A DNA stretch of 64,000 bases, from positions 62,001 through 126,000 of the forward strand of contig NZ_BBBI01000004.1 of NCBI RefSeq assembly GCF_001315985.1. The letters run 5' to 3'. Origin of the DNA: Vulcanisaeta distributa JCM 11216. GTDB taxonomy: Archaea; Thermoproteota; Thermoprotei; Thermoproteales; Thermocladiaceae. The notes beneath the pieces were generated by a model. The model worked only from the letters and a program-made list of their open reading frames with translations, had not been told where the DNA came from and made no database searches. The translations under genes and the position numbers were made by a program. This document shows, piece by piece, positions 2,650-64,000 of the stretch; positions within the stretch are counted from its first letter, which is position 1; each line of letters begins with the position of its first letter.

Positions 2650-3630
2650 ATGGCCACTGTGCGTATAATCCTTGGCACGCCGGTGAACTCGAGACCCAAG
2701 CCCTGGCTTTATTTCCGTGTACCAGCCATAATGGTTAATGCATTTGATATTATGAGAAGTAGAGGTAGTAGGAGAGAGCACGTTATAAAGAATGTACTAC
2801 AGTATGACGGTGAGGTTTGGATGGATAGTGGTGGTTTTCAATTCCTAAGGCATGGTAAGGTACCCAACATTGAGGACTTAGCCAAAGTTTATAGTCAGTA
2901 CTGGGATATTAGATATTTCCTTAACCTTGACTATCCGCCAAGCCCCCCCACCGATGATGAACACGATCTAGAGACTAAACTGAGAAAGTCACTTAACAAT
3001 TATGAGTATTTAATTAGGAGGTTCGATAATGTACTACCGGTGATTCATTATCACTGGAGGACCGAGGTCATCACTAAGTATATAATTAAGTACCTGGACT
3101 ACAACCCCAAGTGCATTGCAATAGGTGGCTTAGTACCATACGTACTAATCAGCAAGGGTGTGCCTAAGGACTCAAGGAGGTCGGCAATTAAGTTCCTACT
3201 CAGAACCAAGCAGGAAACTGGTATGTGCATTCACGTACTTGGGCTCGGCTCTCCCGTAATAAATCCAATACTCAAGTTCATAAACATCGATAGCACAGAC
3301 ACAAGTACCTGGAGGGTTAAGGCAGCCTATGGAAAGGTCGTCATGCCTGGTGGCGGTGAGAGACACGTCAGTGGTAGATCCATTAACTTCGGGGGGGGTA
3401 AGGAGGCAAGCCGTGACGATCTAGTGAGACTTTATGCATTCCTGAGGGATACTGGCTTTCCCGTGATTGATAGGTTTAATGATATTATGACTAGTTTTGA
3501 GTATAGGGCGCTGGTCAATGCGTGGGTCGTGCTTAATAGCTTTGAGGAGCCAAGTACTGGCGTGTTTAGGGCCATATACGATGAATTAACAAGAGAGGTT
3601 AGTGCTAAGATAACTGAGGAGGCACGCTAG
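2650..3630 (+). CDS. tRNA-guanine transglycosylase (TGT)-like protein
   Basis: The protein carries the signature DGEVWMDSGGFQFLRHG (about residues 51-67), which matches the substrate-pocket motif of queuine/archaeosine tRNA-ribosyltransferases, followed by a TIM-barrel-like pattern with IAIGGLVPYV and HVLGLGSP. At 326 residues it is shorter than full archaeal TgtA and has no PUA or zinc-binding C terminus that I can see, so it is probably a crenarchaeal TGT paralogue of unproven substrate. CTTTTATTG at 2630-2638 is a likely TATA box for a near-leaderless transcript. FGGGKE at about residue 248 is encoded by an eight-G run and its length may be inflated. Confidence 0.7.
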   Translation: MATVRIILGTPVNSRPKPWLYFRVPAIMVNAFDIMRSRGSRREHVIKNVLQYDGEVWMDSGGFQFLRHGKVPNIEDLAKVYSQYWDIRYFLNLDYPPSPPTDDEHDLETKLRKSLNNYEYLIRRFDNVLPVIHYHWRTEVITKYIIKYLDYNPKCIAIGGLVPYVLISKGVPKDSRRSAIKFLLRTKQETGMCIHVLGLGSPVINPILKFINIDSTDTSTWRVKAAYGKVVMPGGGERHVSGRSINFGGGKEASRDDLVRLYAFLRDTGFPVIDRFNDIMTSFEYRALVNAWVVLNSFEEPSTGVFRAIYDELTREVSAKITEEAR

Positions 3631-3671
3631 GGATTATATTTATTAATGCGGGTCGTTTCTACGTAATTACC

Positions 3672-4019
3672 GTGAAGAAGACACAAAAAACATGCTTAAC
3701 GCTTGTTGTGGATGTATGCAATGACACACTTGATAGGTTTAAGGGCTTTATGAATACAGCCATCAGGAGGGCAGGCTTTGGTGGTGCCCTGAGGGTCCTT
3801 GTCTATAGGTGTAAGGAGCTCGACTTCAATAATTACGTTAGGGAGTTAAATTCAGTAGTCGCTAATAACTTCTCGGTGTCAATATTCGTATATGAGTTTG
3901 ACGACTTAAACGCAATAATCAACGAACTTAGTAAGAACATATTTAGTGGATGTGATAATTACGGTGTGTTATCGTCAATCGACCTACCGGCTAATATTAA
4001 TTACGAGAAATTGAAATAA
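3672..4019 (+). CDS. Uncharacterised small protein
   Basis: A 115-residue protein with a GTG start at 3672. A TATA-like TTATATTTATT lies about 35 nt upstream. It has two beta-alpha units: LTLVVDVCNDTLDRFKGFM and VSIFVYEFDDLNAIINEL, with three cysteines and no catalytic motif I recognise. It stands alone between the TGT-like gene and a convergent DUF2848-type gene. I do not recognise the family. Amino-acid composition and codon use look like the neighbours, so I believe it is a real gene. Confidence 0.55.
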   Translation: MKKTQKTCLTLVVDVCNDTLDRFKGFMNTAIRRAGFGGALRVLVYRCKELDFNNYVRELNSVVANNFSVSIFVYEFDDLNAIINELSKNIFSGCDNYGVLSSIDLPANINYEKLK

Positions 4020-11947: not shown

Positions 11948-12795
11948 TAATACCAATACCCATATTAATAATCGCAATAATGATTGGTATGATTGTACTA
12001 GGCTTGATTAGGCCGCCGTTAACGGTTATAATACCGCTTCTTGGTATTTACGCAATATTGATGCTAATACCCTACATACTGCCTAATTTCTCAATTAACC
12101 AATACCTTGGTATTAAATACATAATACTTCCGGTAATTGGCTTAGCCGTAGGCTATGGAATATCCATATTAGCAAGTAAGTACATGAATGTGGATGTACG
12201 ATCACTCCTTGGATTAAAGCAGGGTCAAAGAGGAATTAAAAGGCCGAGTAACATCAGTAGTAAGCCGAAGGTTGAGAAGAGGACTGAAATTAAACCCGAG
12301 GATTTGGATAGGCTTATTAATGAAACAATTAATGAGCTAAAATCCGGTGCATCAACTAATGAGACATTGGGTAGCTGGATTGAGTACTATGATGGTTGGA
12401 CGGACGCTATAATAAGTATCTCAAGAAGATTCATGGACATTAAAGGAATTGCAGAGAGCATGAACAAGGAGGTCCCATTCCTATTAAGGGCTAGGCAATA
12501 TGAGAGTAAAGCCGCAATGCTTGGTTTAACCCTTAAGGAGGAGTCAGTCTTTAAGAAACAGAAGAAGACAAAGGTTGTCGAAGAGAGATTAGTAGTTTAT
12601 GTAAGGCCAGAGGAGATAGCCAATGAGTTAATGAACGATACTCAATTAATAAGTAACTATGTTAATGAGTTTAACAATATAGTTGAGAGGTTAGTGCATG
12701 ATAATGATATTTCTCAATACATGGGTAATTCGCAGGTGTTGGTTGTATACGTTGATGGGGGGGTACCAAGGAAGCTCATAATGATTAATAGGTAA
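11944..12795 (+). CDS. Membrane-anchored alpha-beta-alpha-beta protein B
   Basis: A 283-residue protein. Three hydrophobic segments occupy about residues 1-80 (PILIIAIMIGMIVLGL, VIIPLLGIYAILMLIPYIL, YIILPVIGLAVGYGISILA), followed by a basic linker and a soluble domain. That domain ends with strand VVEERLVVYVRPEEIANELM, helix QLISNYVNEFNNIVERL and hairpin VLVVYVDGGVPRKLIMINR, the same end as the neighbouring small proteins. Its ATG overlaps the previous stop (ATGA). It may be the membrane partner of the ATPase in place of a normal platform protein; this is inference. VDGGVP contains a G7 run that may have been VDGVP. Confidence 0.6.
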   Translation: MIIPIPILIIAIMIGMIVLGLIRPPLTVIIPLLGIYAILMLIPYILPNFSINQYLGIKYIILPVIGLAVGYGISILASKYMNVDVRSLLGLKQGQRGIKRPSNISSKPKVEKRTEIKPEDLDRLINETINELKSGASTNETLGSWIEYYDGWTDAIISISRRFMDIKGIAESMNKEVPFLLRARQYESKAAMLGLTLKEESVFKKQKKTKVVEERLVVYVRPEEIANELMNDTQLISNYVNEFNNIVERLVHDNDISQYMGNSQVLVVYVDGGVPRKLIMINR

Positions 12796-12797
12796 AA

Positions 12798-13217
12798 TTA
12801 GGCGCCCTCCTCACCCTGCATAATTATCATTATTGGTATTGAATCAACAAGTAATGCAATTATTGGGCGATCCTTATCGATGTAGAGCGACTCGAGTCTA
12901 TCGATTACCGACTTTATAATTGCTGATTTTTTCTGCATATATCCAGCAACATCATTAATCACATTATTTCTCGTATTGGTGCCCGGCTTATAGACAATTC
13001 TCACGGAAAACACCTCTGAGGAACCATCAATAAATCTAATATTTTCTGATATTTCGCTTGCCAATGTAGTGCTGCTTTCAGTACCTAGTATCTCATTCCA
13101 ATTCTGCTTAAGCATGTACATGAACCTATATGAATTACTTAGTTCGTTCTTTAGGGATTGAATCATCTCATTCAACGAGTTATATCTCTTGATCTCGATG
13201 ATCATGCGTACCACCAA
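12798..13217 (-). CDS. Small alpha-beta-alpha-beta protein C
   Basis: A 139-residue protein in a minus-strand set converging on the ATPase operon. Helix YNSLNEMIQSLKNELSNSYR, strand VFSVRIVYKPGTNTRNNVIN, helix KKSAIIKSVIDRLESLYI and hairpin RPIIALLVDSIPIMIIMQG. The C-terminal hairpin aligns by eye with proteins A, B, D, E and F of the cluster. It is the last gene of a run of four overlapping genes. No known domain. The intact frame and conserved plan make it a real gene. Confidence 0.55.
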   Translation of the reverse strand: MVVRMIIEIKRYNSLNEMIQSLKNELSNSYRFMYMLKQNWNEILGTESSTTLASEISENIRFIDGSSEVFSVRIVYKPGTNTRNNVINDVAGYMQKKSAIIKSVIDRLESLYIDKDRPIIALLVDSIPIMIIMQGEEGA

Positions 13218-13845
13218 TCAATTCCTCAATTTTCTTAAAGGGTTCTGGGTAATTTATATCACTTATTTTCACAACTGTTTCAAAGCTATTTGAGCCAGTG
13301 CTCATTGAGGAGATCAATTTATCAATAGTTACCATTACCTTAGCCAACTCATCGGCAGTCAAGCCAGTAATGCCAACCAAAACGCTGGGTATTTCCGCCA
13401 TCTCCTTAATGTTCGATAGAGTCAATAATGGTAAATCTGACACATCAGGTAATGAGTAACCTATGATTACGTCTATCGATGAACCATCAATAATAACCGT
13501 ATAATTATCGCCTATACCGAGTTTTTCGCTAAATTCCGTAACCTGCTTAATAGCCATGAGCACATTTGTGTAATAATTAATTGCGTCCCTAATTATATCC
13601 TTATAACCACTGGCCGTTAACACGTAAATAACCTCAATATCACCCACCTTAGATGTTACATTCGTGCCACCCTTAGTATACCTGGCTGAAGATGACTTAC
13701 TCCTTAATTCCCTTATTAATTTGTTCACAGTCTCGTTATCAAGATTGATTGCATACATCTCATTGAGAACTTGCAGTATTTCATTAAGCCTACTACCAAG
13801 ATCTAGGATCGTGTTCTTTAATTTATCACTTCTTAGCACTATCAA
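13180..13845 (-). CDS. Alpha-beta-alpha-beta protein D (longer member)
   Basis: A 221-residue protein. The first 130 residues follow the cluster plan: helix LKNTILDLGSRLNEILQVL, strand VGDIEVIYVLTASGYKDIIR, helix YTNVLMAIKQVTEFSEKLG and hairpin YTVIIDGSSIDVIIGYS. About 90 further residues follow (ELAKVMVTIDKLISSM and others), ending in HDHRD. It overlaps protein C by 38 nt and protein E by 20 nt, so the four genes are surely one transcript. Unknown family. Confidence 0.55.
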   Translation of the reverse strand: MIVLRSDKLKNTILDLGSRLNEILQVLNEMYAINLDNETVNKLIRELRSKSSSARYTKGGTNVTSKVGDIEVIYVLTASGYKDIIRDAINYYTNVLMAIKQVTEFSEKLGIGDNYTVIIDGSSIDVIIGYSLPDVSDLPLLTLSNIKEMAEIPSVLVGITGLTADELAKVMVTIDKLISSMSTGSNSFETVVKISDINYPEPFKKIEELIGGTHDHRDQEI

Positions 13846-56901: not shown

Positions 56902-57674
56902 ATGCCATTAATTAAGTTACTTCAATGGCTAATTACGAGGTATTCACTGGGATATGTGAACGCATTAACTGCCCGAGGGGGCTACGTAGATCTTGTACTC
57001 GGGGGGGAACTATCGAGACTAGGCGTGGCTGAAGTCCTTAGTGATGGGGGGCTGTCGAGTTCATGGGCTTTAGGCTACTGGGTAAGGGCCAGAATAGTCT
57101 CGTATTTAAATGCCGAATTAATAATAATTATTATGCCTGCAAGGTTAGGCGCTTTGATTCACCCAGGCCAAACCTGCTAAATGAGGGCTATTACCTAAGG
57201 CTTGCGAATTCCGTAGGTGTTGGGCCAAGGCTATTCGGGTACACAGACAACGTACTAGTTATAGAGTTGATAAATGGCATACCCATACAGAAGTACATAA
57301 CCACCGCGGGCCCGGCGGAAATAAGGGCCATCCTCACAGACCTCCTTTGGCAATGCCGTAGGTTAGATTCCATAGGCCTGGCGCATAATGAATTAAGTAG
57401 GCCGCAGGACCACATAATCATTAGCAGCAACAAGGCTTTTATAATCGATTTCGAAAGCGCCAGCCTAAACAGTAGGGTTAGTAATGTAGCCCAATTACTA
57501 AACGCCCTAATAATGGGCAAGGGATTCATCCAACACCACGTTAAATTAGCCATAGGAACAAGCATAAACCTCGAAGAACTACGAAATACAATCAAGAGAT
57601 ACAAATCCACGAGAAACGATACAGACTTCATGCAGATACTCAGGATACTAAACCTCCTAAACAACCACAAGTAA
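56902..57674 (+). CDS. Putative archaeal Ser/Thr protein kinase (COG2112-like), frameshifted
   Basis: An N-terminal helical domain (LIKLLQWLITRYSLGYVNAL) is followed, after a break at the G6 run 57045-57050, by a small kinase: LLGKGQNSLVFKCRINNNYY (glycine loop), ACKVRRFDSPRPNLLNEGYY (the Lys), NVLVIELINGIPIQKY (hinge), GLAHNELSRPQDHIIIS (catalytic loop) and AFIIDFESASL (DFE metal site). Four G would give DGAVEFMGFRLLGKG and join the frames. Archaeal COG2112 kinases resemble Bud32/RIO. It lies just upstream of the CRISPR leader. Confidence 0.72.
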
Positions 57675-57991
57675 TTCACAGCACAACAAATAAACCCAGA
57701 GAACCAGACTACGAAAAATCTACATAAATGAAAACCCCTAAAACGTAGGAACACCCGCGTTTATGTGGGATTGATTGTGGTGTGGGAGGTGGTTATTGGT
57801 GGTGTGGTTGGGTCGTGGGAACAGGTATGTTCATGTGGGATTGATTGTAATTGTTAGAACGTGAATTACCGTCGTTGGGCAGTTCGTGGGAACAAGCACG
57901 CACCATGGATGTCCGTGGGCATACCTCTTCCAATGATGGGCAAACCCATGCGAAGAAAGGCTTATAAGAAAGCTTATAAAGTAACGTCTCA
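57675..57991 (+). promoter_or_regulatory. CRISPR leader with an imperfect 70-bp tandem repeat
   Basis: The 317-bp stretch before the first repeat holds no believable gene. ATGTGGGATTGATTGT occurs at 57763-57778 and 57833-57848, and CGTGGGAACA at about 57813 and 57884, so a unit of about 70 bp is repeated. Two TATA-like elements, GGCTTATAAG (57959-57968) and AGCTTATAAA (57971-57980), lie next to the first repeat and would start the pre-crRNA at or just inside it. The strand follows the repeat end GAATAGAAGG, which resembles the usual crenarchaeal 8-nt crRNA tag side. Confidence 0.6.
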
Positions 57992-58927
57992 GATAATCTC
58001 TAAAGAGAATAGAAGGAAGTCCGTGGGAGATAATAAAGCATGTATTAGGTGATGTTGGTTTTGATAATCTCTAAAGAGAATAGAAGGTAGAGGCAGTCAC
58101 CACAGCCGATGTCCAGGACCCTGACGCCCCTCCGATAATCTCTAAAGAGAATAGAAGGGCGGCTCTTTCGTTGCTTGGGGGGGCGGGCGGTGGCGTACTC
58201 AAGATAATCTCTAAAGAGAATAGAAGGACGTATCCGTCAATGTAACCATCGTTGATAGTGATGCCGATGCGGATAATCTCTAAAGAGAATAGAAGGCGTG
58301 CTTAACCCACGTTGGTTACCACTAGAATTCTATCGATTAAATGATAATCTCTAAAGAGAATAGAAGGCCTTTACATACTACTAGTGTGTAAGTCGTATTC
58401 ACTAACATTAGTGATAATCTCTAAAGAGAATAGAAGGAGCTACAAAAACCATGGCTCCTGTATCCAAGAGAGAAAGAATGTGATAATCTCTAAAGAGAAT
58501 AGAAGGTCTTAAGAATGATTTAGCGGATGAAGAAGATGTTTTGTTATTTGTGGATAATCTCTAAAGAGAATAGAAGGTGGGTAGTAATTCTCCATCTTAT
58601 CCCTCCCAATAACAAACCCAAGATAATCTCTAAAGAGAATAGAAGGATTATTACTGTTATGGTACTAAGGATTGTAATGTAAACCCATGCTGATAATCTC
58701 TAAAGAGAATAGAAGGCTACGCCATTAACGTTTACGAACCCATTCGCAGGACTACGATAATCTCTAAAGAGAATAGAAGGTGGAGGAAGTAAGGAAGATC
58801 CTACAAGGGTGATGGCGCATGCCCGAGATAATCTCTAAAGAGAATAGAAGGTCTCAAAACCATTCTCAGTCCTACGACTCAACGAAAACCTAAGCTTACC
58901 ATGATATTCTCTAAAGAGAATAGAAGG
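57992..58927 (+). CRISPR. CRISPR array, 14 repeats of 25 bp and 13 spacers
   Basis: Repeat text GATAATCTC ... GAATAGAAGG. Repeats start at 57992, 58063, 58134, 58203, 58272, 58343, 58413, 58482, 58553, 58622, 58692, 58756, 58827 and 58903. Spacers 1-12 are 39-46 nt; spacer 13 is 51 nt. The first 13 repeats are identical; the last has GATATTCTC at its start. The core CTCT-AA-AGAG is palindromic. Leader is on the left, so the changed repeat is the leader-distal one. No cas genes are in the window except a distant Cas4-like gene at 25836. Confidence 0.97.
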
Positions 58928-61470
58928 CTAACACTCGCACTTGCATAGGCACCCTCATTCATTGGATTATTAGTACTCAAGTAACCACTATACTGAATAC
59001 TCAATGTGCCAGGCTGGACAAGGGCACCACAGTAGGGCATTGAGCCCTCCCCCCCCATTTGCGGATTAAGCAGTGTACCCACCTCAATTAAGTAAGTAGT
59101 GTACTCAGTGCCTGATGGAGCAGTGTCATTACCACTAATTGTGTTAGGCCCAGGATTATTACATGTAATTTTATGATAACATGATGTAAAGCATTTATAA
59201 GACCCAGTAGTAGCATTCACAACATAGCATGTTTGAGTACATGTTTCAGTGTATGTATAGCAAGCACTTACACTGCCAGTGTGGGTACTGCTACTACTCC
59301 AACTCCACTGAGTATAGAATACATTACTTGGTAAAATATTCATAAAGTCTGGACAAGTATTAGGTAATATTGATGATGAAGAAGTACACTGGTAAATAGC
59401 AGTCTCATTACCAGGTTTTGTGACATTGAATGTAATATTAGTACTCCCAGAGCTTGCTAAACCACTCCAATCAGCAAAGGTACAAGTGTACTGCCCACAA
59501 GTCACTGACTGGGGGGCTTGTAGTGTTACATTACTACCAATGGGAATGGTTAAATTAAATGGGGCATAATTTGTACCATTAGCTACTGTATATGTACCAT
59601 TAATAACATCATAACTAATTGGCACGCAATTATTCAAATAACCAATGCTTGAACCATATGCCTGAATAGTAAGGTTTGCAGTATTACATACAATAGTCTC
59701 ATTGAAGAGGCCCTCAACAATCACAGTATATGTGGAACTCCCTGTGGTCTTTAGTACTGTTATTGACCCACCATTATGGTTTAATATATTAAACTGCCCA
59801 TTGACAATAAATGTTAATGGACTACCACTTGGTGTGTAGGCAACCTCAACACCCTGTGTGGTAATATTAACACCCACTGGGTAGTACTTGGCAACACAAG
59901 TGCTATTGTATGGGGCAGTCACGTTTTGGAATTGGAATTGGATAATGTCCTGAACAGTGAGTGGGAATTCCTGAGGCAGTGAGTAGGTACCCTCATAAAG
60001 AATTGAACCACTACTACCATTTACAATCTGAACATTCACCTTCCCAACCATGGTACCAGTACTTGGGTTAGTCTGGTTGCTGGTGAACTTAATCAAACCA
60101 CCAATACAATTATAATTCAACTTAATGACAGTATCACTGGTTATCTGGTCAGTGACTGTAACAGTATTACCACTGATGGTGTATGAGGCACCTCCAGTGG
60201 CCCCCCCATTAAATGTGCAGTTCATTCCCTCCCAAAGGATGTAGGAGGGTGCTTTGACCTGCACAGTGCTGTATGGTGCAACGTAGGCAATGCCAAAGGC
60301 TGGTCATTCTGGTCAAGCCAAGCCACTTGGCTAACAACCTGCCCATTACTAACAACAGTGCCTCTAGCAAAGTTAGAATAGAATGGTAGTGACTTCCACT
60401 GGCTTGGGACTTTATTTAAGCTAATGCTTATTGTTGGGTTCCAGTACTGGACTGGGATTGAGGTTGACTGCCCATTGGGCAGGGTAGTGACTGCCTGGAC
60501 AATGACAAAGTCAGTGGCATACACTGTTGCTGACCATGAAAATGATACATTATAACTTACCCAATTGAACTTACCAAGTGATTGTAATAAATCTATTGAT
60601 CCTTGAGAAAATGAAAATAATGATGCTTGCTGAATTGGCTGGTTTGCAATGTAATTTTCAGAACGCCCAATACTGTCCCCCCCAGTTGCTGCATTCAAAG
60701 AGTACCCATCAATTGTTACATTTAATGCAGCGTCAGCAACCTCCCTATAAGCACGTTGTGCAAATACATATATATTTACAAAATGATTAGAAGTAGACAA
60801 ACTAGCAACAGGATTTAATGGGTAATCACTGTAAAAGTAATAACCAAACGCTCTAGTAAGGAAATAGTCATATGTTACTACATGCTCAGTAGCATATAAG
60901 GCAAGACTAGCTGGTGTTAAGTAAAAAGTACCAGTACCTAATAAGTAATTAATTAAATAAGCAGAACTTTGGAACATTCCGTAATACATAAGCCCACTTG
61001 AGGAATAAGGCACTGGTTCTGGAGATTTTCCCTCTCCATTCTGGTTATTTGGATAACTACTCCCGCCTGCTGGGTAGAATACATTAACAACAGGTAGTGA
61101 TGAAGGCCCTATCACAATCAATGGGTAAAAAGTACTTCCACAATCTCCGCTTGAAAATAAATCTGACTTGATGTTATTTGATTACCAGTGTATGTTAGGC
61201 AAACCCATGTATCATACGTATAAATTGCAGATATGTAATCCCAATTATGCCTGGCATAAGTATTTAGTGAGTAGGACATCCACACAAGCCTATAGGCATA
61301 TTGGCTTGGAATGGTAATATTCCAACCCTGAAACTGTGGTTGTAAGTTTATTTGCTGGTAAAAATCAACCCACTGAATAATCATCGCATGGGTTGGCACT
61401 GCAGTAATTACCATAATGAGTAGTAGGCCTAGCAATCCAAGGGCCAGTAGGGGGGCAGTGAAAGCCTCAT
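58879..61470 (-). CDS. Large exported Cys-rich surface protein, frameshifted
   Basis: One gene in four frame pieces. ATG 61470 gives a signal peptide (MRLSLP then LLALGLLGLLLIMVITAVP, needing four or seven C where six are read at 61450-61455). Breaks near 61128 (a missing T) and near 60290 (a missing A/T; DQPFGIAYVAPYS rejoins). The outer part of about 830 residues is rich in T, S, N, Y and Q with many N-x-S/T sites and a Cys cluster (YTETCTQTCYVVN, YKCFTSCYHKITC). It ends inside the variant CRISPR repeat (SLLFSLENI is that repeat) and stops at 58879. Unknown family; fits a virion or S-layer-like protein. Confidence 0.6.
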
Positions 61471-61582
61471 GTTAGTGAAGCCTTTTTTAAAGAACAGGAC
61501 TAATTAGCATTCAAGGAATGAGAAAGAGAAAGAACAAGAATTTGGGGGGGATTTTATAGGATTTTAATAATTAAGGCTTGAA

Positions 61583-62992
61583 TCATGGAGTGAAGGTGCA
61601 GACTCCTGCAGTGTATTCTGGAGCATACACTACAATGTAATCAACATTCAAGTTAGTATAAGCCTGGATTGAAATTGGGTTTGGAATACCAGTGAGTATG
61701 TAATACCCAGCCACATTCCTAAGTATTGAAGCCCAGCAGTTGGATGTTCCCTCATAACTACCACCTGGCAATGTAATGTTTATTGTAGTGCCAAATGGTA
61801 TGTTATTAAAGACTAGTGTGGCATTATTCCCATTGATCATTACTTGACTTGGGGGGGTTGGTGTTATGTTCATTGCCTTGAGGGTCTCCTCAACCATTGC
61901 CCCCCCTGTGAATGGGGAAGTAACATTGTATAATTCCCAACTCCAACCAGTGTATGGATTAGTCCAATTATAGAATGACAGTGTTACCACTACCTGTGTT
62001 GTATTTGTTGGTGGTGTTCCAATGTCCGCACTGGTGACTTCATTGAATAATTCCCCAGCATTATACTGCCTAATAGCCCAGGCCACGAACTCCTCATAGG
62101 CTGCTGACTGCTTGAAGTCAACCCACTGGCTCATTGCCCAATCATACATTGCTGTGCCAGGCTCATAGAGTTGGAATACTACTTTACCACCCTCCCATGC
62201 ATTTGAAAATGCAATCCAGTCATACGTGGTGTTCACTAGTGATGGGCCATTTATCTCAGTCCCATTTGGAAGCCTAACTGGAATACCTGGTGGGGGCACC
62301 CTCATTAAATGCCAGCAGTTATTAACAGTCTCTGGTGGTGGGGGGGTACTAGGTAGAGCATCATTTGCTGGGGGGTCTCAACAGCAGCAATACTGCTTGG
62401 GATTAATGATAAACTCAGGTCAAACTTATAAACACCATACCCCTCATACACTAATTCATTATCATGATAAATCATTAGGAAGAAGTCATAGTACTTCCAA
62501 TCTGGCTGATGAATAATCCTCAGTGGGAGTACTACAATAGTCCAATTACCCATGCACTCAGGCATTGGGTAATTGCTTAATGGCACTAAAGCCTCCTTAG
62601 TTGGTGTTGGCATTCCCATACTCACAACACCACTAACAAAACTAGTAGTCACACCAGTGTTGAGTAGGGTAGTGTTTTGGATGAATTGGAGTACAATCAA
62701 GTCACTGTCTGGGAAGGTTGTGGTATTCAAGAGTGGGGGGGTATATGTTAAAGTCCAATAAAAGACATAAGTAGTATCATTCCTAACTGGCATGTTAATA
62801 GCCCCCAAGGTTAGTGACAATAATAGTATTACCCTTGACACTATACCCATTTGGGGGGGTAGTACTAGTATAGATAATCCCAAGGAGTTGGTAGATTAGG
62901 CCAGGCATGAGGATCCAAACCACCAAGCCCAGTAGGGCAATGATGCCAAGGGCAATACCCAACCTCCTCCCCCCCCAACCCATACTAAACAC
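61583..62992 (-). CDS. Membrane-anchored protein of the putative element, frameshifted
   Basis: ATG 62992 starts a basic end and a membrane segment (LGIALGIIALLGLVVWILMP), followed by an outer region. Breaks lie near 62805 (five G where four would read VTNLGAINMPVRNDTTYVFY) and at the C7/G7 run near 62345 (five would read PPPPETVNNCWHLMRVPPPG). The rest has AWEGGKVVFQLYEPGTAMYD, QWVDFKQ and LKAMNITPTPPSQVMINGNN. About 465 residues joined, with little charge and many N, T, Y, W. No family recognised. The C-terminal text suggests a second surface protein. Confidence 0.55.
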
Positions 62993-63040
62993 CCTGTTTT
63001 TAACCTGCAGTGGCAGGGTTTAAATAACTACTCCCCCCCA

Positions 63041-63438
63041 TCAAAAACCATTACCAATACTCCCTAACAATCTAGGGGTGGGGGCATCATGAGTACCACA
63101 TGCCTCCCTCACATGCCTACAGGACAGGGGGGGTAGATTACCCCCCCTGCTAACCCAGTGGTTCCAGGCATGCATTATCTGGTACATTGTAATCCTCTCC
63201 CTATAGTCCCTTGCATACTTCCTGAATAACTCATTCAATTCCTGAACAACCTCCATCAAAGCCCTCCTCTTATTCACAACCTCAATCCAAAGAACCCAAG
63301 TAACAACAGCCCTCCTACCCTCATGACACAATTCACCAGTACTCCTCAAGTAATCAATCAACTCCTGAACCAAGCAGGGAGTGCAAGGACTGGAGAAGCC
63401 CTCCCCCCAGCCTTCCTAGCCCTCCTAGCCCTAGCCAT
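63041..63438 (-). CDS. Small basic Cys-containing protein of the putative element, frameshifted
   Basis: ATG 63438 starts MARARRARKAG; the run of six C at 63403-63408 breaks the frame, and four would read EGFSSPCTPCLVQELIDYLR. Then follow GELCHEGRRAVVTWVLWIEV, KRRALMEVVQELNELFRKYA and ERITMYQIMHAWNHWVSRG, a strongly helical, basic part, and a C-terminal LSCRHVREACGTH with Cys/His. About 132 residues. A DNA- or RNA-binding role is suggested by charge only. It would be the first gene after the joined end of the large surface gene in a circular form. Confidence 0.5.
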
Positions 63439-63560
63439 CCTCGCAAGCTCCCTAACCCCAAGTGCCTCACTGGTGTTTATTACATATGTAAAAACTTGCC
63501 TTGGGGGGGTTAGGGGGGGTGTAGGGTGACCTTGTTTGTTATCTTCAATTTCCCATTCTC

Positions 63561-63585
63561 GATATTCTCTAAAGAGAATAGAATG
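63561..63585 (+). repeat. Solitary CRISPR-repeat-like copy
   Basis: The 25 bases match the terminal array repeat (58903-58927) at 24 of 25 positions, including the variant GATATTCTC start, and differ only at base 24 (T for G). Palindromic core ATTCTCT-AA-AGAGAAT. It is 4.63 kb from the array end and has no neighbouring repeat. Likely attachment site or leftover terminal repeat. Confidence 0.85.
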
Positions 63586-63652: not shown

Positions 63653-64000
63653 TCAGCTTTGTGTCTTGAGCAATTCCTTTGCGAGGTTCCATAATTTATC
63701 ATTTAGGTGGTGTATTACCTTAATGACTTTGCCTTTGCTTGCGTTTCTTATTTCGTCTGCTGTCATGAGCGATATCCCAATGGCTATGTACCTGCCCTTA
63801 AGATCCCTAATTAGTAATACATCACCGGCACCAAAGTTGCCGCTTATGTCCTTAATGCCTGGTCTCATTACGTCTGCTCCATTGACTATGTGCGGCACTG
63901 CGCCGTCGTCGACGGTAATCATTGGGTAGTTGGGCATGTACGTTGGGTTCAGGTAGAAGTACATTAGTAGTGGTATTACGTATTCCCTCTGGTTTGCGTC
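63653..64000 (-). CDS. PUA-domain RNA-binding protein, partial
   Basis: The gene runs off the window: the frame is open from position 64000 (DANQREYVIPLLMYFYLNPT) to the stop at 63653. MITVDDGAVPHIVNGADVMR, PGIKDISGNFGAGDVLLIRD and KGRYIAIGISLMTADEIRNA form a typical PUA domain, with a helical tail. It resembles the C-terminal part of archaeal MCT1-like or tRNA-modifying PUA proteins. Only about 116 residues are visible, so the full identity is open. Confidence 0.8.
   Translation of the reverse strand, partial: DANQREYVIPLLMYFYLNPTYMPNYPMITVDDGAVPHIVNGADVMRPGIKDISGNFGAGDVLLIRDLKGRYIAIGISLMTADEIRNASKGKVIKVIHHLNDKLWNLAKELLKTQS

Follow-up and report, generated by a model that had tools for sequence, protein, structure and literature searches.

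The stretch of DNA analyzed here (the window) comprises 64,000 nucleotides of the Vulcanisaeta distributa JCM 11216 genome (G000), at positions 62,001 to 126,000 of the 169-kb contig C4 in an assembly of 2.42 Mb and 65 contigs. Near its right end lies a clustered regularly interspaced short palindromic repeat (CRISPR) array, and between the leader-distal repeat of this array and a solitary copy of the same repeat is an inserted block of 4,633 bp (58928 to 63560). The CRISPR leader (57755 to 57991, plus strand; its start is approximate) ends in taacgtctca, as do those of both arrays on contig C6 of the same genome and of the array in genome G002. The array itself (57992 to 58927, plus strand) comprises 13 repeats that begin with GATAATC and a terminal repeat that begins with GATATTC, with 13 spacers of 39 to 51 bases. 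The repeat core, CTCTAAAGAGAATAGAA, occurs 15 times in the window, each time without a mismatch, where 0.22 occurrences would be expected with up to three mismatches allowed; 14 of these cores lie within the array, and the remaining one stands alone at 63561. The two repeats that border the block are both of the GATATTC form and on the plus strand. R1 (58903 to 58927; GATATTCTCTAAAGAGAATAGAAGG) is the 14th repeat of the array, and R2 (63561 to 63585; GATATTCTCTAAAGAGAATAGAATG) is the solitary one. They are identical over their first 23 bases and at 24 of 25 bases overall, so that an earlier reading made from the sequence alone (the sequence-only reading) had placed and compared them correctly.

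The block is an insertion relative to G002. A query that ran from the right-hand portion of the block into its right flank was used to search 12 genomes of the genus, and G002 was the one in which 98% identity starts exactly at the solitary repeat. There, the last of 16 repeats is joined directly to TATGCGATATAAAGTTC, which is the window sequence that follows R2; the counterpart of R2 is thus the last repeat in G002. The flanks are collinear with G002 on both sides, with identities of 95.2% over 8.0 kb and 97.0% over 5.4 kb. This is the empty site that the sequence-only reading had predicted, with the array end running directly into the flank of the PUA-domain gene. That gene (63653 to 64000, minus strand, continuing past the window) lies in the right flank, which was found in 12 of 12 genus genomes, and the left flank carries a gene at 57063 to 57674 (plus strand) that we take, by motif, to be kinase-like. 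The two flank matches are separated by 121 bp in G007, 134 bp in G008, and 4 bp in G004, with no array of this type seen between them. In G010 (locus L053), the reverse-strand region to the left of the PUA gene holds a leader-like stretch and one single repeat with no spacer. This is a collapsed array at the same locus, and the array here can therefore shrink to one repeat.

Three gene units lie on the minus strand between the repeats, as the sequence-only reading had listed, but they are split by frame breaks. Gene 1 (58879 to 61470) consists of pieces at 58879 to 60264 (with 16 Cys), 60222 to 61121, and 61118 to 61435; it starts near 61470 and has an N-terminal hydrophobic segment, and its product is taken as secreted. 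Its frame passes through R1 and stops inside spacer 13, and the 3' end of the gene was probably cut off at the left junction. Gene 2 (61583 to 62983), with pieces at 61583 to 62305, 62305 to 62883, and 62795 to 62992, also has an N-terminal hydrophobic segment, and its product is taken as membrane anchored. Gene 3 (63041 to 63373) encodes a small protein and may continue upstream in another frame. Several genes neighboring the insertion appear to be split by frame breaks as well. The window contains 29 runs of four G, 58 of seven, and 9 of eight, compared with 129 runs of four and none of seven in four G007 loci (59 kb). In the window and in loci L019 and L051 (G008), long G/C runs are mostly of length 7 or 8, and runs of length 4 or 5 are rarer than in the four G007 loci. 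It seems that runs of four or five G/C in G000 and G008 were written mostly as seven or eight, an expansion of about three bases that would be a systematic sequencing or assembly error. Because of this apparent expansion, the frame breaks in the insert genes may well be sequencing artifacts; therefore, the breaks in genes 1 to 3 are no sure sign of decay, and the limits of the genes are approximate.

Nothing scored above threshold when six open reading frames (ORFs) of the insert were compared with Pfam and PHROGs and five with NCBIfam, or when the C-terminal part of gene 1 was used in a PDB sequence search. Gene 3 had no convincing homologue in Pfam, PHROGs, NCBIfam, IMG/VR, or PLSDB searches; a match to the primase subunit PriL (E value of 0.037) was far below the cutoff and was not used. 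Two AlphaFold2 predictions made without an alignment were also set aside (mean predicted local distance difference test scores of 35.8 and 36.5). IMG/VR yielded no relatives of the C-terminal part of gene 1, of pieces A1 and A3, of gene 3, or of the gene 2 piece from locus L050 of G002, and no contig with a 22-base piece of the right end of the block. INPHARED yielded no match for two protein pieces or for the block DNA, PLSDB yielded none for the C-terminal part of gene 1 or for gene 3, and no donor sequence covering the block ends was found in the searches made.

Within the genus, relatives of the block genes were found at other sites. With the whole block as a DNA query, 3 of 61 genomes gave matches, and a search of named genomes matched one locus, in Vulcanisaeta distributa JCM 11217. 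Gene 2 has relatives in 4 of the 12 genus genomes, its own included (contig C41 of G000, G008, G007, and G002), and in none of the 69 other genomes among the 81 genomes of the class that were searched. Gene 1 comes after gene 2 in C41 and, shortened, in G008. The G008 pair lies on contig C8 within an insert of about 2.26 kb, and in all 11 other genus genomes the flank matches at this site either overlap by 24 bp (G007) or are 13 to 192 bp apart. On C41, a 4.5-kb contig, a gene flanks the pair on each side; the matches to these two genes are separated by 41 bp in G007 and by 164 bp in G003, and no complete site was found in the remaining genus genomes. C41 is the only other copy found in G000 and matches the window block in pieces, with identities of 77 to 98%, mostly about 80%. 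G007 has a cassette remnant beside what read as rRNA genes. Because related genes lie at unrelated sites that are filled in some genomes and empty in others, the block is a cassette of genes for secreted and membrane-anchored proteins (as predicted above) that is mobile in Vulcanisaeta. G007 also has a 37-base match of 87%, which seems not to belong to an array.

Neither end is the same in the three main copies. Before gene 1 breaks off, very roughly 130 codons of it are present in G008, 420 in C41, and 850 in the window, and the sequence upstream of gene 2 measures roughly 450, 70, and 580 bp, respectively, all estimated across frame breaks. Since gene 1 breaks off differently in each copy, the inserted piece is probably part of a larger element. 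The gene 2 homologue of G002 lies on contig C12 (L050, 960 to 8700), in a stretch that also encodes a D5-like primase (PF19263 and PF03288) and a resolvase-family recombinase. The left border of this stretch is a tRNA gene, interrupted in the anticodon loop, that was seen by eye but not by ARAGORN; a second type of CRISPR array begins within about 0.5 kb on its right, and the stretch is a probable integrated element. It shares the gene 2 family with the window block but is only distantly similar to it, being about 7 to 8 kb or more in length and having replication and recombination genes and a tRNA as its left border.

The block sits in register between two array repeats, as a spacer does, but its 4,633 bases compare with 39 to 51 bases for the spacers of the array. 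As to enzymes, the sequence-only reading had suggested one that was Cas1-like, Xer-like, or carried elsewhere. No integrase of these or other kinds, and no replication gene, was recognized in the insert ORFs scanned, which are frame-broken pieces; cas1 is present on contig C6, where it accompanies a csa2/cas3/csa4/cas6 cassette (presumably type I-A) beside the arrays with the same leader end. Both Cas1 matches in G000 are on C6. The outer 70 bases of the block contain no inverted match of seven or more bases between the two ends and no direct repeat of six or more bases placed as an insertion within a spacer would require, shorter ones occurring at about the chance rate. The block therefore differs from a casposon, having neither Cas1 (Pfam, six ORFs) nor terminal inverted repeats, and from an insertion sequence or DNA transposon, having no inverted ends and no transposase recognized among its frame-broken genes. 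It also differs from a tRNA-targeted integrative element, since no integrase gene or fragment was found and ARAGORN called no tRNA in locus L009, although the program likewise made no call in L050, where part of a tRNA can be read by eye.

The changed start of R1 and R2, the main clue of the sequence-only reading, is not peculiar to these two copies. All 16 repeats of the G002 array have the GATATTC form, as do the four leader-distal repeats of the other G000 array (C6, minus strand), the last of which is degenerate. GATATTC is thus the older repeat form of the locus, a mark of age and not of a special duplication. The likeness of R1 and R2 would consequently be expected even if they were plain neighboring repeats, and we rejected it as proof of duplication. 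None of the G002 spacers printed is shared with the window array, so that remnants of an old spacer within the block would not be recognizable. Among 523 unique spacer strings (fewer real spacers, as palindromic repeats were partly read on both strands), the best match to the cassette was 16 bases, in the C41 flank, and 14 bases in the window block, which is the chance level. In the G000 arrays at 12266 to 13653 and 2939 to 3871 of locus L010, repeat starts differ (GATAATC and GAAATTC, with GATATTC among the oldest), and such variants may date the uptake of spacers.

A second junction bears on how the cassette moves. On the left side of the G008 insert, the flanking host sequence extends in phase into a decayed copy of the target, about 26 bp long. 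This stretch matches the G007 empty site at 16 of 26 positions and the right-hand copy in G008 at 15 of 26; among 72,396 positions compared across four loci, 14 and 36, respectively, do at least as well. The target itself is palindromic (TTCTCT...AAGAGAA) and immediately precedes a TATA-like box; its best local match to the CRISPR repeat sets AAAGAGAATAGA against AAAGAGAA-AGA. This match scores 18 in the G007 version and 17 in the G008, G000, and G005 versions; of 4,610 background windows, 24 attain the former score and 53 the latter. A common mechanism for the G008 and window copies, with a stagger of about 25 bp, is plausible from these comparisons. If the family moves by such a stagger, the window copy should be flanked by a duplication, and the repeat is the only one there.

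The explanation that we favor, tentatively and at somewhat less than an even chance, is that a trans-acting enzyme integrated the cassette at the terminal repeat and thereby duplicated about 25 bp. A mobile Vulcanisaeta surface-protein gene cassette would have entered the CRISPR locus when only GATATTC-type repeats were present; the block would now fill the oldest interval between repeats, and the 13 spacers on GATAATC repeats would have come later. The integration activity, for which Cas1-Cas2 is one candidate, would have cut the strands about 25 bp apart and so duplicated the repeat into R1 and R2, and the same kind of event could have left the duplication of about 26 bp around the G008 copy. 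Consistent with integration at a terminal repeat are the GATAATC form of all 13 younger repeats, the leader that G010 has here with just one repeat, and the presence on C6 of cas genes next to arrays whose leaders end alike.

Several points weigh against this explanation. Fifteen repeats make 14 intervals, of which the block fills the oldest, and two repeats around any interval are normal; R1 and R2 can be accounted for without any duplication. Because the block occupies the oldest interval, exchanging it for an ordinary spacer restores the array as well as deleting the block and one repeat does. The three copies, without common ends, are a poor fit to a classical transposon, and no enzyme was identified for the integration. 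The G008 duplication is decayed, and its length and phase were chosen after the alignment had been seen; one base out of phase, the comparison gives 11 of 26, a level that 5% of positions attain. The G008 target resembles the repeat weakly, and the C41 junctions are too diverged from G007 and G003 to define any duplication. The sequence-only reading is supported in part: the insertion is real, it abuts a repeat on both sides, and its genes have relatives at other sites, but the data do not require repeat targeting, for which the lack of a within-spacer direct repeat of six or more bases and the decayed duplication of about 26 bp at the palindromic G008 site lend mild support.

The closest competitor, possible but on balance doubtful, is that the cassette landed in the ordinary oldest spacer by an unrelated insertion or end joining, with the halves of that spacer hidden in the block ends. 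Such a landing makes recognition of the repeat unnecessary, and it accommodates both the likeness of R1 and R2, given that GATATTC is the older form, and the lack of recognizable spacer remnants, given that the printed spacers of G002 and the window have none in common. It is disfavored by the lack of direct repeats of six or more bases in the right geometry (shorter ones being near chance), and the frame of gene 1, open up to R1, would leave little room for a left spacer remnant. Because of the G008 duplication and this lack of within-spacer direct repeats, we rank integration at the repeat slightly above insertion into a spacer, an order that depends on one decayed junction, and both above recombination with a repeat-bearing element.

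That third explanation, which we consider unlikely, supposes a circular element with its own host-type repeat that recombined with the terminal repeat, so that one crossover placed a repeat on either side of the element. In Sulfolobales, viruses and plasmids carry stand-alone repeats and mini-arrays (PMC6858448). Single repeats occur at this locus in G010 and on contig C1 of G008, as recombination between repeats would leave them, and a homologue of gene 2 lies in the apparent integrated element of G002 with its D5-like primase and resolvase-family recombinase. The homology would amount to only 25 bp, however, and the other cassette copies have no such repeat at their borders. Moreover, no replication gene was recognized in the block, and the exact 21-base TTCTCTAAAGAGAATAGAAGG was in no IMG/VR contig searched (a GATAATC variant would be missed).

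A special form of integration at the repeat, counted within the probability given to our favored explanation and improbable taken alone, is that the block is a giant spacer, a 4.6-kb fragment that Cas1-Cas2 joined to both borders of the repeat at a leader with one repeat, duplicating the repeat. The block is in a spacer position between two whole repeats, in what would have been the leader-proximal slot before the later 13 spacers, and Cas1-Cas2, with cas1 present in G000, would explain a duplication of exactly the repeat. CRISPR repeats are described as target-site duplications of spacer integration, generally of 25 to 50 bp (PMC6977970). On the other side, the 13 other spacers of the array have 39 to 51 bases, and literature searches yielded no kilobase-long spacer. 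Long gaps in the other arrays scanned were a 1.3-kb stretch in G007 (apparently a cas gene plus a second leader) and intervals that ended at a chance match or a reverse-strand match to the repeat pattern. The wider notion that Cas1-Cas2 integrates mobile DNA both at a lone repeat and at repeat-like palindromes elsewhere, as in G008, and is therefore a general-purpose DNA integrase for mobile genes, is likewise improbable. An assembly artifact that wrongly joined array end and cassette might be suspected from the poor quality of G/C runs and the 65 contigs but is very improbable, as contig C4 spans 169 kb, both flanks are collinear with G002, and the only other G000 copy, C41, is mostly about 80% identical and hence not the same sequence.

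Insertion sequences occur inside CRISPR arrays and, like the block, are foreign DNA interrupting an array; here, in contrast, no transposase was recognized, and no short target duplication or inverted ends were found. Integration at the terminal repeat would resemble the insertion of casposons, Cas1-encoding transposons that insert with a target duplication at a preferred site (PMC6977970). Unlike in casposons, neither Cas1 nor terminal inverted repeats were found in the block, and the duplication would be about 25 bp, compared with the 14 to 15 bp of casposons; the same paper sets a casposon duplication of 14 bp against the 25 to 50 bp general for CRISPR repeats. SPV1 and SPV2 belong to the archaeal viruses and plasmids with stand-alone repeats and mini-CRISPR arrays (PMC6858448). 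Their mini-arrays likewise join mobile DNA to a host-type repeat in a hyperthermophilic archaeon, but there the repeat is in the mobile element, whereas here the cassette is in the host array and has no leader or spacer of its own. Literature searches found no direct precedent for a cassette inserted at a CRISPR repeat.

Should the repeat be where integration takes place, CRISPR arrays would not just keep a record of mobile genes but would also receive them as landing pads, and natural joining of kilobase DNA by Cas1-Cas2 or another enzyme would be demonstrated. On a plain reading, too, a mobile family of archaeal surface-protein genes is documented without a recognized transposase, and its filled and empty sites make the mechanism testable.

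Two further observations concern CRISPR sequences in other genomes. The 1.3-kb stretch in G007 (L105, 3435 to 4730) is a gap between two arrays of the second type; in it lie a second leader and an open frame similar to a cas gene. Contig C1 of G008 carries a solitary CRISPR repeat of the GAAATTC form (L127, 7909 to 7933), which is the sole match in G008 within two mismatches of TTCTCTAAAGAGAATAGAA.

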